A DNA stretch of 64,000 nt from Diabrotica undecimpunctata (taxonomy: Eukaryota; Arthropoda; Insecta; Coleoptera; Chrysomelidae), in contig NC_092806.1 of NCBI RefSeq assembly GCF_040954645.1, positions 128,734,952 through 128,798,951 on the forward strand, read 5' to 3'. Positions 1,317 to 57,464 of the stretch are shown here, one piece after another. The notes below the pieces were generated by a model, which saw nothing but the letters and a program-made list of their open reading frames with translations, did no database searches and had not been told where the DNA came from. A program made the position numbers and the translations under genes. Each line of letters starts with the position of its first letter. Position 1 is the stretch's first letter.

Positions 1317-1777
1317 TGTTCCAACGAAAATTTGACGTTCCCAGAATCTCAGAAACCAAGAGTTTCTTCATAATTAAAAAAAACGCGTCAATTTGTATTG
1401 GGTGGGAGACGAATTTTCATGCAAATTTCATGCCCTCAAATATAACCCCTACTGCCTTGCATTAAACCTCAGTGTTTTTAAATAGCAAGTGTGGTCGAGT
1501 GGCGCATCAATTGGAAGCTATTTTTTTTTAAATCCGTAAACTAATTTTTCGAAACCAAATTGAGATTTATTCTTTAATCTGTGCCTTCTAAGAATTGCAA
1601 GGCAAAACAGACGTTGATAAAGATGTTATTAGAGACATTAGGAATCTAAAATTGCATTCCCCAACATATTATTTCCTTAACTAAACAAAAATCCTTAGCG
1701 AATTGATTTCTAGTACTCATAAAGAGTATGCCGGAATAAAAGGAAAAAGACAGTTAAGATTTTATTTCACGTATAGT

Positions 1778-1846
1778 GCGTCTGTATATCCACTTATACG
1801 TATTTCACCCTAATAGGGATCATCAGAGATGGATATTCACAGACGC
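1778..1846 (-). ncRNA. Type-I hammerhead ribozyme motif (locus 1, minus)
   Basis: On the minus strand the core CUGAUGA (1820-1826) is followed by a CCCU/AGGG stem II with an AUU loop, then GAAA (1803-1806), then UACGUAUA with the expected cleavage after position 1795. Stem I is strong: GCGUCUGU pairs with ACAGACGC and AUAUCC with GGAUAU around a small internal loop. The first stem II pair is U-U rather than G-C, so this subfamily may be less active than the one at 57 kb. Confidence 0.7.
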
Positions 1847-2201
1847 TCTGAACGTGAAAATAAATCTTTCCTGTCTTGGGAAGCAACTCTAACATTGCTT
1901 CGTATGGACGCAAATAGCGACATCTGATAATAAATCCGTAAACTAATTTTTCAAAACCAAATTCAGATTTATGCAATTTTAACATCTAATTAATTTTAAT
2001 TCTAATTTTAATAACATCTTTATCAACGTCTGTTTTGTCCTGCAATTCTTAGAAGGCACAGATTAAAGCATAAATCTGAATTTGGTTTCAAAAAATTAGT
2101 TTACGGATTCATTATCAGATATATCAGTCGCTATTTGCGTTTATACGAAGCCATGTTAGAGTGGCTTCCCAAAACAGGAAAGATTTATTTTCACGTTCAG
2201 A

Positions 2202-2270
2202 GCGTCTGTAAATATCTGTTTCTGATGATCCCTATTAGGGTGAAATACGTGTAAGCGGATATACAGACGC
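2202..2270 (+). ncRNA. Type-I hammerhead ribozyme motif (locus 1, plus)
   Basis: Plus-strand partner of the motif at 1778-1846. CUGAUGA lies at 2222-2228, the CCCU-AUU-AGGG stem II follows, GAAA is at 2242-2245, and UACGUGUA brings the predicted cleavage after 2253. Outer stem I GCGUCUGU (2202-2209) pairs with ACAGACGC (2263-2270), and AUAUC pairs with GAUAU. Stem III and inner stem I are eroded compared with the 57-kb copies. Confidence 0.65.
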
Positions 2271-2359
2271 ACTGTGCGTGAAATCAAATCTTAACTGTCT
2301 TTTTCCTGTTATTTTTTTTTCTCTACACGACACTTTTTTTTTTAATTTATGGAATAACT

Positions 2360-11363: not shown

Positions 11364-12926
11364 ATGCCGTTGTCGGATATATCCAGTACTCGTGAACCCA
11401 GTGAATTTGAAACAGATTCTGGCTCTGACTTCCATCCACCTTCTGATGCTGAGTCTTCTACAACTAGGGAAAGCTTCACAGAAGATGGACTTGTGGAACC
11501 TGGATCAAGTAGGGGTAAAAAACGTAAGAAAAATAATTCAGTTTGGAAAAGATCTAAGTCTAAGTTGGAAAGAAATTCAGGAAAATCATATTTGAATTCT
11601 CGTGGTAGAATTGTGTCTAAGAAACAATTTTTTCATGGAGTTTGCAGTTGTCCACGAAAGTGTCATTTGTTGTTATCTCTTGAGGAAAGAAAATATATTT
11701 TCCAAAGTTTCTACAACTTATCTGATTTTAATTTACAGACTGCTTACATTAATATAAAAGTAAATGTTGTCAATAAAGGTCGACATACAGCAGCTCAAAA
11801 CCATAATAAACGTTCTAAGACACGAATTTATACATTACCGAAAGAATCAGGTGATATGGTAACTGTTTGTAAATCATTTTTCAAAAAAGCTCTACAAGTT
11901 TCAGATGGAAGGCTCACCAGAGCTTTAATAAACAAATCAATAGGTGGCGAATTAATCACTCCGCCACTAGATAAAAGAGGCAAGCAGCCCCCTAAGAATA
12001 AGACAAGGGAAACCGATATTCAAAATATAAAAGATTTCATTAACAAATTTGCCAAATATACATCACACTATAGCCGCAACAAAAATCCTAATCGAGAGTA
12101 TCTGTCACCTGATTTAAATATCTCAAAACTTTATGATTTGTATGTGCAAGGTAAAGAACCAGAAGTGAAGGTATCCAAATTCATCTTTTCGAAAATATTT
12201 AATGAAGATTTTAATCTTCATTTCCGTTATCCTCTCACTGACACTTGCAAACGATGTGACTCTTATAACATGAAAATAAAAAGCTGTGTAGGTGTAGAAA
12301 AAAGCAGAATGGAAACAGAGAAAGAGTTACACCTGCGGAAGGCAGAAGCAGCTCGAAGTGGAATGAAGGAAGATGCAGCCAAGAATAAAGATACCACAAC
12401 AGTAATTACATTTGATTTGATGAAAACTTTAGCTACTCCTAGTATTTCTACGGGAGTGGCTTATTACAAAAGACAGTTGTGGACGTATTGTTTTGGCATC
12501 CACAATTTAACGACAGGACAGATACACATGTATGTATGGCATGAAGGCATAGCCTCACGTGGCCCACAAGAAATTGGTTCTTGCATTTTACACTACGTAA
12601 AAACATATGTTAACACACCAGTTTTGATCTTGTACAGCGACCAATGCGGAGGTCAGAATCGAAATATTAAACTGGCATCTATTTGTACATACATGAGCGT
12701 CTCCAATACTTTCAGTCCCACAGTCATACATCACAAGTTTCTAGTTTCCGGTCACTCGTATTTGCCATGTGACAGAGACTTTGGAGTGATCGAAAAACAA
12801 AAACGATATTTTAAAGACATTTTTTTGCCAGACGATTGGGTGAAAGTTATTTCCAGTTCCAAAAAGAAGAACAAATTTCAGGTATTTAAAATGACCTCTG
12901 AAAATTTTAAGTGTACTGAAAACTAG
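11364..12926 (+). CDS. DUF7869-like putative transposase (main reading frame)
   Basis: 520 codons, the longest open frame in the window. An acidic, Ser-rich N-terminus (residues 1-50) and a Lys/Arg-rich patch (50-70) precede a Cys cluster CSCPRKCH (94-101). A basic DNA-binding-like middle region and a second pair CKRC (295-298) follow. The C-terminal half looks like an RNase-H-fold nuclease: Asp351 in ITFDL, Asp426 in YSDQCGGQN, His464 in SGHS, and Asp470/Asp472/Glu477 in CDRDFGVIEK. I infer DDE/D-type catalysis from this spacing; it is not established. The start was chosen as the first Met after the splice acceptor. The frame closes at TAG 12924, but the family's C-terminus continues in another frame. 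Confidence 0.85.
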   Translation: MPLSDISSTREPSEFETDSGSDFHPPSDAESSTTRESFTEDGLVEPGSSRGKKRKKNNSVWKRSKSKLERNSGKSYLNSRGRIVSKKQFFHGVCSCPRKCHLLLSLEERKYIFQSFYNLSDFNLQTAYINIKVNVVNKGRHTAAQNHNKRSKTRIYTLPKESGDMVTVCKSFFKKALQVSDGRLTRALINKSIGGELITPPLDKRGKQPPKNKTRETDIQNIKDFINKFAKYTSHYSRNKNPNREYLSPDLNISKLYDLYVQGKEPEVKVSKFIFSKIFNEDFNLHFRYPLTDTCKRCDSYNMKIKSCVGVEKSRMETEKELHLRKAEAARSGMKEDAAKNKDTTTVITFDLMKTLATPSISTGVAYYKRQLWTYCFGIHNLTTGQIHMYVWHEGIASRGPQEIGSCILHYVKTYVNTPVLILYSDQCGGQNRNIKLASICTYMSVSNTFSPTVIHHKFLVSGHSYLPCDRDFGVIEKQKRYFKDIFLPDDWVKVISSSKKKNKFQVFKMTSENFKCTEN

Positions 12927-19719: not shown

Positions 19720-20204
19720 AATCGTGTATAACATAGCCCGAGGGAAATATTTGTGCAATGTTTTGTTCTTTTTGCAGAAGCCAATAGAGTCCGGGTGAAA
19801 AGTTTGTTCACACGGAAGAAATTTGCATAAGTCGGTTGCCAAATTCTTCGAAATGATCTTTAAATAAACTTTTTCGGTTATAGATATGCGTTAGTTATGG
19901 AAATTTAAAGAGTGCCCATTCACTTCTTTACACGAAGAATTATCAGTGTATCTTATAATTTTAAAAATACCGATATTTATTGTGTTAAAATGGGGAAATG
20001 GAAACAGAAACCAAGATTTAAAGAACGTAAATTACACCATTTTATAGGGATGAAAATGTCCATTCACTTCTTTACACAAAGAATTATCAGTGTGTCTTAT
20101 AATTTTAAAAATACCGATATTTATTGTGTTAAAATGGGGAAATGGAAACAGAAACCAAGATTTAAAGAATGTAAATTGCATCATTTTATAGGGATGAAAA
20201 TGTA
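19720..20204. repeat. Dispersed repeat with a 144-bp tandem dimer
   Basis: The segment at 19720-19916 is related to 28846-29030 (shared words such as TGGATGAAAAG/GGGTGAAAAG, ACACGGAAGAAAT and TTTTTCGGTTAT). It leads into two head-to-tail copies of a 144-bp unit, 19917-20060 and 20061-20204, each starting CATTCACTTCTTTACAC and differing at only a few bases. Because 144 is divisible by three, a frame stays open through both copies (19912-20256), but nothing suggests a protein. Confidence 0.75.
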
Positions 20205-56150: not shown

Positions 56151-56539
56151 TTTTGTAAATCCTATTTACAAATTGTAAAATATGACATTCTTACCTAATT
56201 GTGAACCTAATAATTAATCCAAAATACTGTTTAGATTTAGTTGATGCTGTTATCAATAAAATAAAAAATGCAAGAATTCAAAAACAAAACTTCTTTATCG
56301 GTAAGATAGTTTCGAAGCAAATTCAGATTTCTGCTTTAATCTGAACCTTCTATAAATGCAAGGTATAACAGACGTTGATAAAGATGTTAATAGAGAAATG
56401 GGGAATCTAAAATTTGCATTCCACGACATGTCTATCAACTAAGCAGAAATCCATATCGAATTTGTTTCTTGTACTCATACAGAGTAGATCCGAATAAAAT
56501 GAAAAAGGCAGCAAAGATTTGATTTCACGTTCAAAGCGT

Positions 56540-56601
56540 CTATGTATCTGTTGATACGTATTTCGACTTAATAAGTCTCATCAGAACAGTTATTCATAGC
56601 C
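56540..56601 (-). ncRNA. Type-I hammerhead ribozyme (locus 2, minus)
   Basis: Minus strand identical in sequence to the plus copy at 57285-57346. CUGAUGA is at 56578-56584, a perfect GACUU-AUU-AAGUC stem II follows, then GAAA and UACGUAUC. Stem I pairs are CUGUU with AACAG and CUAUG with CAUAG. Confidence 0.85.
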
Positions 56602-56887
56602 GTTCTTAACGTGAAAAATAATCTTCTCTGTCTTTTAGGAAGCAACAATAAAATGGCTTCGTTATGGACGCAATGGCGACATCTGATAGAAAAATCGGTA
56701 AGATAGTTTCGAAACAAATTCAGATTTCTGCTTTAATCTGAACCTTCTATAAATGCAAGGTATAACAGACGTTGATAAAGATGTTAATAGAGACATGGGG
56801 AATCTAAAATTTGCATTCCACGACATGTAAATCAACTAAGCAGAAATCCATAACGAATTTGTTTCTTGTACTCATACAGAGTAGATC

Positions 56888-56949
56888 GGCTATGAATAAC
56901 TGTTCTGATGAGACCTATTAAGTCGAAATACGTATCAACAGATACATAG
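56888..56949 (+). ncRNA. Type-I hammerhead ribozyme (locus 2, plus 1)
   Basis: CUGAUGA at 56905-56911, GAAA at 56925-56928, cleavage expected after C56936. Stem I is GGCUAUG-AAUAA-CUGUU against AACAG-AUA-CAUAG, with the internal loop typical of natural type-I forms. Stem II has one C-A mismatch (GACCU/AAGUC). Stem III is the self-complementary UACGUA, too short to close alone, which suggests a dimeric active form. Confidence 0.85.
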
Positions 56950-57284
56950 ACGCTTTGAACGTGAAACCAAATCTTTGCTGTCTTTTTCATTTTATTCGGA
57001 TCTACTCTGTATGAGTACAAGAAACAAATTCGTTATGGATTTCTGCTTAGTTGATAGACATGTCGTGGAATGCAAATTTTAGATTCCCCATGTCTCTATT
57101 AACATCTTTATCAACGTCTGTTATACCTTGCATTTATAGAAGGTTCAGATTAAAGCAGAAATCTGAATTTGTTTCGAAACTATCTTACCGATTTTTCTAT
57201 CAGATGTCGCCATTGCGTCCATAACGAAGCCATTTTATTGTTGCTTCCTAAAAGACAGAGAAGATTATTTTTCACATTAAGAAC

Positions 57285-57346
57285 GGCTATGAATAACTGT
57301 TCTGATGAGACTTATTAAGTCGAAATACGTATCAACAGATACATAG
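57285..57346 (+). ncRNA. Type-I hammerhead ribozyme (locus 2, plus 2)
   Basis: CUGAUGA at 57302-57308, stem II GACUU-AUU-AAGUC (5 bp, no mismatch), GAAA at 57322-57325, UACGUA then UC with cleavage expected after C57333. Stem I pairs CUGUU with AACAG and CUAUG with CAUAG. All canonical core positions are present (CUGANGA, G-C first pair of stem II, GAAA, A15.1-U16.1, C17). Exactly 397 bp downstream of the previous motif. Confidence 0.88.
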
Positions 57347-57464
57347 ACGCTTTGAACGTGAAATCAAATCTTTGCTGTCTTTTTCATTTTAAAACTTCTT
57401 TACTTTATCCAGTAGTGTCAGATTAAATGTTAAAAGAACATAATAAAACGGTCTAGTAAAACAA

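Follow-up and report, generated by a model that had tools for sequence, protein, structure and literature searches.

The genome of the leaf beetle Diabrotica undecimpunctata contains a dispersed family of short, hammerhead-bearing elements, and most of those that we classified are built of two arms joined head to head, with outer ends at two fixed and different positions of a 397-bp unit. Its build departs from that described for animal retrozymes and bears the marks of a Penelope-type insertion. It probably represents an animal (non-LTR) retrozyme family whose mobility is supplied in trans by a reverse transcriptase (RT) of the Penelope-like kind, with a circular or multimeric RNA primed once per target strand at two fixed sites.

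The first copy (copy A) occupies positions 56298-57390 of the window, the whole 64-kb stretch of DNA analysed here. The preliminary description of this DNA had presented it as an insertion made of a 397-bp unit, free of protein frames and bordered by a perfect 12-bp target duplication. All three points were reproduced: internal repeats are spaced at 397 bp, no frame of ≥110 aa overlaps the insertion, and the direct repeat AAAACTTCTTTA is present at 56286-56297 and 57391-57402. That description also spoke of tandem units, and the units do repeat, but it overlooked the hallmark of the element, namely two arms joined head to head whose outer ends are fixed. Copy A is not a plain tandem array; its left arm is inverted relative to the right one (inverted repeat of 393 nt, 99% complementary), and the RNA-sense 3' ends point outward. 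Because the two arms lie in opposite orientation, two of the three hammerheads are on one strand and one is on the other. The features of copy A are as follows.

56286..56297: left target-site duplication AAAACTTCTTTA (direct-repeat search)
56298..56887, minus strand: left arm, 590 bp or 1.49 units, with the outer L end at about unit position 310
56553..56584, minus strand: hammerhead core to predicted cleavage at 56553^56552 (core pattern and descriptor)
56888..57390, plus strand: right arm, about 503 bp, with the outer R end at about unit position 112
56905..56936, plus strand: hammerhead core to predicted cleavage at 56936^56937, with one stem II mismatch (core pattern, pairing and descriptor)
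56937..57333, plus strand: predicted 397-nt monomer between two putative cleavage sites
57243..57390, plus strand: long hairpin bearing a hammerhead; the R end lies a few nt beyond the hairpin base
57302..57333, plus strand: hammerhead core to predicted cleavage at 57333^57334 (core pattern and descriptor)
57391..57402: right target-site duplication (direct-repeat search)

Within the 397-bp unit, a search for pol III A and B boxes gave nothing convincing, and no half-repeats were detected. The GC content is 0.313 in the surrounding 2 kb and 0.32-0.39 in the hairpin copies, below 45% as in animal non-LTR retrozymes. A transcript of the entire element at 56298-57390 could fold into a hairpin of nearly 400 bp and is a possible source of small RNAs. 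An Rfam match of copy A to MIR8562 (6.5e-17, below the gathering score) was taken to be spurious, a by-product of the long inverted arms.

A unit search within the window identified a second, older copy (copy B) at 1530-2309, which the preliminary description had passed over. Its pieces are 77-80% identical to the unit, and it is also head-to-head, with outer R and L ends matching those of copy A; the end rule in this older subfamily thus refers to one element.

1519..1529: left target duplication TATTTTTTTTT, 11 bp, of low complexity
1530..1974, minus strand: left arm, with the L end as in copy A
1738..1884, minus strand: hammerhead hairpin of the left arm (hairpin model, built from copies including this one)
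2009..2309, plus strand: right arm, with the R end as in copy A; the final few bases are ambiguous with the duplication
2164..2310, plus strand: hammerhead hairpin of the right arm (hairpin model, built from copies including this one)
2310..2320: right target duplication
1606-1627, 2013-2034, 56367-56388, 56764-56785 and 57101-57122: 22-nt stretch AACATCTTTATCAACGTCTGTT in copies B and A

All five unit copies of A and B that span this 22-nt stretch carry it without change, in elements that differ by approximately 22-26% overall. In the hammerheads of copy B, the base of stem II is a U-U and the predicted cut site reads UA. When the joined flanks of either insertion were compared with the 64-kb window, no paralogue spanning the junction was detected. 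The window also contains a 520-aa frame (11364-12926) with relatives in many insects, one of which is called 'putative sola1-9'; it matches Pfam DUF7869 below the cut-off and is possibly a DNA transposase. Another feature is a 144-bp unit in two tandem copies (19916-20203), open throughout in one frame.

The preliminary description had proposed three type I hammerheads in copy A. Three CUGAUGAG...CGAAA cores are present, at 56584-56561 (minus), 56905-56928 (plus) and 57302-57325 (plus), where 0.02 are expected by chance. A pairing-aware type I descriptor, in which all three helices are required, found exactly these three in the window and allows two cut positions for each; simulated sequences (first-order Markov, n = 200) averaged 0.015 matches per 64 kb. 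The descriptor misses the diverged motifs of copy B. Each hammerhead of copy A forms the tip of a long imperfect hairpin. As read by eye, the proposed motif comprises stem I (CUGUU/AACAG), stem II (GACUU/AAGUC) and a very short stem III inside the self-complementary AUACGUAU, with putative cleavage after UC. The plus strand, on which the predicted cleavage sites are 397 nt apart, could release a 397-nt monomer.

The covariance-model check that the preliminary description had named gave a weaker result than the descriptor. No Rfam match in the window reached the gathering score; under relaxed settings, Hammerhead_1 scored 20.2 bits (gathering 34) for one motif only, and RAGATH-1 scored approximately 21 bits (gathering 56.3) for all three, with E values of about 0.1 to 1. 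The helices themselves covary between the two subfamilies represented by copies A and B. In five hairpin copies, 94.3% of cells are paired, and six pairs are changed on both sides; the corresponding figures are 3.3 for shuffles, of which 7 of 500 attain six, and 0-1 for slid controls. The comparison of A with B represents mainly one divergence, though each pair is a separate change. The count of further pair types in the hairpin copies is not above that in shuffles (385 of 500 reach it). Because the Rfam scores lie below gathering, the probable assignment to type I is drawn from the descriptor and the covariation.

Further copies of the unit, to which the preliminary description had looked for confirmation, are dispersed in the host assembly (1.743 Gb). 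A search with the 397-bp unit gave 1,366 candidates, the best 40 of which, when scored, contained at least 179 matches; the same search with the unit in opposite phase gave 1,330 candidates and at least 172 matches in the best 40. Forty elements grouped from the matches listed in the first search, one of which is copy A, were all fetched and mapped (first set), and 20 elements that were new among the 40 of the opposite-phase search formed the second set. Both sets are biased towards close copies, and the 60 classified elements come from more than 1,300 candidate places. By pattern, 88 of 110 cores in genome copies are the consensus with five stem II pairs, 10 have four pairs and 12 are variants; two consensus cores occur in tandem in 28 of the 40 first-set elements. 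Exact-pattern scans for the element in collections of viral contigs and genome contigs gave no match in either.

Forty-one of the 60 elements are head-to-head and 19 are single-armed. Among the head-to-head elements, 37 have one R and one L end, none has two R or two L ends, and four (L042, L062, L077 and L083) have one end outside R and L. Selection for full-unit matches should not favour R plus L over R/R or L/L. The first set includes 27 head-to-head elements, of which 24 are directly R/L, 12 in each orientation; in L036, the R end and a 13-bp duplication lie 36 bp further out, so that L042 and L062 are the odd-ended elements of this set. The second set contains 12 head-to-head elements with R and L ends (10 classified from the listing, L080 and L082 after fetching) and the odd-ended L077 and L083. 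In the first set, 12 of the 13 single arms end at R and one (L046) at u93, and in the second set three end at R and three at L; overall, 15 end at R, three at L and one elsewhere, mostly without a duplication. The rule that single arms always end at R, suggested by the first 40 elements, was discarded as a product of query-phase bias, since the opposite phase yielded the three single L arms.

The positions of the ends are narrowly defined. In the first set, R ends have a median unit position of 112 (sd 2.4, 38 arms) and L ends of 313 (sd 3.4, 25 arms), and four of the 67 arms end away from both. The R end lies 56-57 nt past the predicted ribozyme cut, and L lies approximately 200 nt further on. 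R is unpaired in the predicted circular fold of the unit, in which R and L are not unusually close to each other (distance 24; 36.5% of random points are as near). Extra CATTT-like repeats at the R end, seen by eye in approximately six of 22 printed junctions, are as expected of slippage at an RT start.

Duplications at other copies, also anticipated in the preliminary description, flank 22 of the 24 two-armed R/L elements of the first set. They are 9-15 bp in length and 85% AT (nine of 12 bp, six of 13 bp, three of 9 bp, two of 15 bp and one each of 10 and 14 bp); the three 9-bp duplications are less sure, and that of L033 lies 9-10 bp away from the mapped ends. The two other R/L elements are L049, which lies in a TA repeat, and L067. 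In a control with 600 random right-end placements, 574 gave ≤7 bp and 12 gave ≥9 bp. Flanks are richer in AT near the element (75.3 versus 67.9%, all 40 first-set elements). Clear duplications at first-set single arms were found only in L054 (13 bp) and L057 (12 bp), and at none of the six second-set single arms, some of which were fetched with little flank. A plausible interpretation is that duplications result from the extension of both target strands. At the single-armed copy L053, a 13-bp match to the R flank occurs 319 bp upstream (L053:1260-1578); the intervening stretch seems to include an inverted repeat and may represent a further insertion, or a second arm copied from a different RNA.

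Repeated 397-bp units might also indicate an ordinary satellite, or a DNA transposon or foldback element, in which the hammerhead is a passenger, and other animal hammerheads are described as residing in satellite DNA. Such an origin is extremely improbable for elements that are short and dispersed, have arms of at most 1,810 nt and target duplications, and show compensatory changes in the hammerhead. In addition, the outermost 40 bp of copy A contain no terminal inverted repeat of the kind found in a DNA transposon or MITE, being no better matched than shuffles (195 of 1,000 equally good).

Fixed outer ends together with variable centres would equally be produced if the head-to-head build were an inherited DNA unit, i.e. 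if an ancestral two-armed element had been copied whole and deletions at the palindrome centre had later altered the inner junctions; large palindromes are unstable. The likeness of arms within elements points elsewhere. On a segment of approximately 226 nt, the two arms differ by 0.9% in copy A and 7.5% in copy B, whereas A and B differ by 25-26%, and 48 sites group by element and none by arm. Gene conversion between arms could mimic this likeness. However, single-armed copies exist, copy A has no terminal inverted repeat at its ends, and the inner junctions of young elements were seen, in part, to differ without a nested series of deletions. Inheritance of the two-armed unit is accordingly decidedly unlikely, and we retain the reading in which each element is built anew from RNA.

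The inner ends are scattered over the unit, and none of the 67 first-set arms has one within 5 nt of the predicted cut; none falls at unit positions 17-88 either, a gap that bias from the query phase may explain. Fifty of the 67 arms are longer than one unit, with a maximum of 1,810 nt. Because arms exceed one unit and no inner end lies at the cut, the template was probably not a linear self-cleaved monomer; these data agree with a circle or a multimer, with the circle as the favoured form. Unit copies differ by 1.8-1.9% within an element and by 2.4% between elements. Where four or more unit copies cover a position, 160 of the variants are private, 17 are present in all copies and 14 in some (six of these in L035), and the nearest unit copy is in the same element for 12 of 37, compared with 1.0 by chance.

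The inner ends also bear on snap-back self-priming, in which a single cDNA or antisense template would prime itself and make an inverted copy. This route was proposed for Penelope elements (Arkhipova 2013, PMC3846280), and rotifer Penelope elements have head-to-head copies with palindromes at the junction (PMC3846280). It predicts that the two arms start at the same unit position, whereas the arm starts are more than 5 unit positions apart in every one of the 27 first-set head-to-head elements (the nearest are 9 apart, in L032). We therefore regard snap-back as very improbable here and return to the priming of both target strands.

Penelope-like elements are present in the same genome. A GIY-YIG search gave 6,687 candidates, of which the best 150 were scored and contained 73 matches; three copies (L071, L072 and L073) were fetched. 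L071 has a 605-aa frame with a GIY-YIG match above the cut-off and an RVT_1 match just under it (29.0 versus 29.6 bits), and among the relatives of this frame are RT-domain proteins of Diabrotica. Both L071 and L072 are bordered by inverted arms. By pattern, the Penelope-like copies carry a hammerhead-like motif (CTGAAGA...GAAAGCT); they gave no Rfam hammerhead match. These copies are in line with the link to Penelope-like elements drawn in the preliminary description, and its reading of the insertion as a retrozyme, a mobile RNA-based element, agrees with the dispersal of the unit, the duplications and the covarying helices.

The ends of the Penelope-like copies lie approximately 66-70 nt (short) or 97 nt (long) after their predicted cut: L071 is long/long, L072 short/long, and L073 has one short arm (partly by eye). 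A search with a Penelope end gave 1,599 candidates, the best 40 of which contained 47 matches, with six head-to-head pairs listed. In four of the six, one match runs to the query end (long) and the other stops at query position 143; of the remaining pairs, that at C1:80003570 has a second arm that stops at 87, and the other is L071, with two long ends. With L072 included, a short and a long end are combined in five of the seven Penelope head-to-head pairs seen; the search selects for at least one long end and lists no stop point for the long side. Two further neighbours are tail-to-tail (C5:143498271 and C6:89880692). Short head-to-head pieces of Penelope ends, with too little space between the arms for a frame and built like the retrozyme, were observed at C6:64619611-64620004, C5:83656419-83656757 and C4:89869179-89869545.

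The retrozyme R end is placed, relative to the predicted cut, like these Penelope ends. The distance from short to long end is approximately 30 nt, compared with approximately 200 nt from R to L in the retrozyme, and one Penelope-like copy has two long ends, whereas R/R and L/L are absent among the 60 retrozyme elements. The 397-bp unit has no similarity to the three fetched Penelope-like copies beyond short chance matches, and the retrozyme hairpin model does not match them. Because no sequence similarity joins the two, it is the anatomy of the insertions that points to the helper. With no GIY-YIG or RT frame (no frame ≥110 aa), the retrozyme is not itself a Penelope element; it would be a non-autonomous passenger of Penelope-type machinery. 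Its inverted head-to-head ends, their fixed positions and the target duplication are together those of a Penelope-type insertion.

Twin priming by the LINE machinery of the beetle, which would prime the RNA twice and leave inverted 5' parts, provides another route. Twin priming yields inverted copies with target duplications, and LINE-type RVT_1 frames are present in the window. However, its second priming site is expected to vary, whereas both outer ends are fixed to within a few nt in 37 of the 41 head-to-head elements. None of the 22 printed junctions has an A-rich tail, and the short-plus-long pairs of the Penelope-like copies offer a closer parallel. LINE-mediated twin priming is thus unlikely, and Penelope-type mobilisation remains our preferred reading.

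Under Penelope-type mobilisation, tandem-unit transcripts would self-cleave at the hammerheads and then probably be circularised. A Penelope enzyme would make a staggered cut of approximately 12-13 bp in AT-rich DNA, as the duplications suggest. Reverse transcription would be primed by the free 3' ends, with RNA of the same type as template for both, starting at R for one strand and at L for the other; these fixed positions are presumed to be the RT start sites. As the arm lengths indicate, the cDNAs could run past one unit on a circular or multimeric template, and the two cDNA ends would finally be joined mid-element at variable places to give a head-to-head element bordered by a target duplication. 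In the study of Frangieh 2024 (PMC11167929), a Penelope-like protein cut both strands and extended them; it favoured AT-rich DNA and initiated internally, at positions that match genomic ends. The Anolis protein starts 111-118 nt into its frame, with the ribozyme cut at 26 (PMC11167929). Penelope elements have inverted terminal repeats, most often head-to-head, with 8-10 bp duplications and an optional 31-bp tail on one repeat (Arkhipova 2013, PMC3846280).

A stricter form of this scheme is possible, if doubtful: one complex, perhaps an RT dimer, would grip a single small RNA circle at two opposite sites and copy it around simultaneously from the two target strands, with R as the invariable start for one strand and L for the other, in a two-headed rolling-circle target-primed reverse transcription. 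In in vitro experiments with the Anolis protein, top and bottom strands do not differ in start site, and insertion is independent of ribozyme cleavage, with no reads beginning or ending at the cut (PMC11167929). By analogy, these results speak against a strict rule of one site per strand and against an obligatory cleavage step.

Penelope-like elements have been put forward as strong candidate mobilisers of animal retrozymes on the basis of shared hammerheads, tandem copies and coexistence (PMC7229834). The beetle anatomy, with two fixed presumed start sites, one per strand, provides a direct and testable signature for this question. If confirmed, it would connect an RNA processed by ribozymes with a known class of enzymes and would be relevant to the origin of the inverted copies of Penelope elements. 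In the retrozyme and Penelope literature covered, which takes in few subscription journals, we came across no account of retrozymes built head to head with a pair of fixed ends.

Plant LTR retrozymes (PMC11722881, PMC7761336) are likewise non-autonomous and have hammerheads, a circular RNA stage (putative in the beetle element) and target duplications; however, they have type III hammerheads, LTRs with PBS and PPT, and 4-bp duplications, whereas the beetle element has inverted arms, a type I topology and longer duplications and is not a member of that class. Animal non-LTR retrozymes (Cervera and de la Pena 2020, PMC7229834) share with it the type I hammerhead (predicted in the beetle element), tandem AT-rich units, the lack of a frame and coexisting Penelope-like elements, and their units of 170-400 nt include the 397 nt found here. 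They are described as tandem repeats, and the main text of that paper uses none of the words 'inverted', 'opposite' and 'target site', whereas the beetle elements examined are mostly head-to-head, with two fixed and different outer ends and duplications of mostly 12-13 bp. These latter features recall Penelope-like elements (PMC11167929, PMC3846280), which have head-to-head inverted ends, variable short duplications, AT-rich targets, fixed internal RT starts downstream of the hammerhead and an optional tail at one end.
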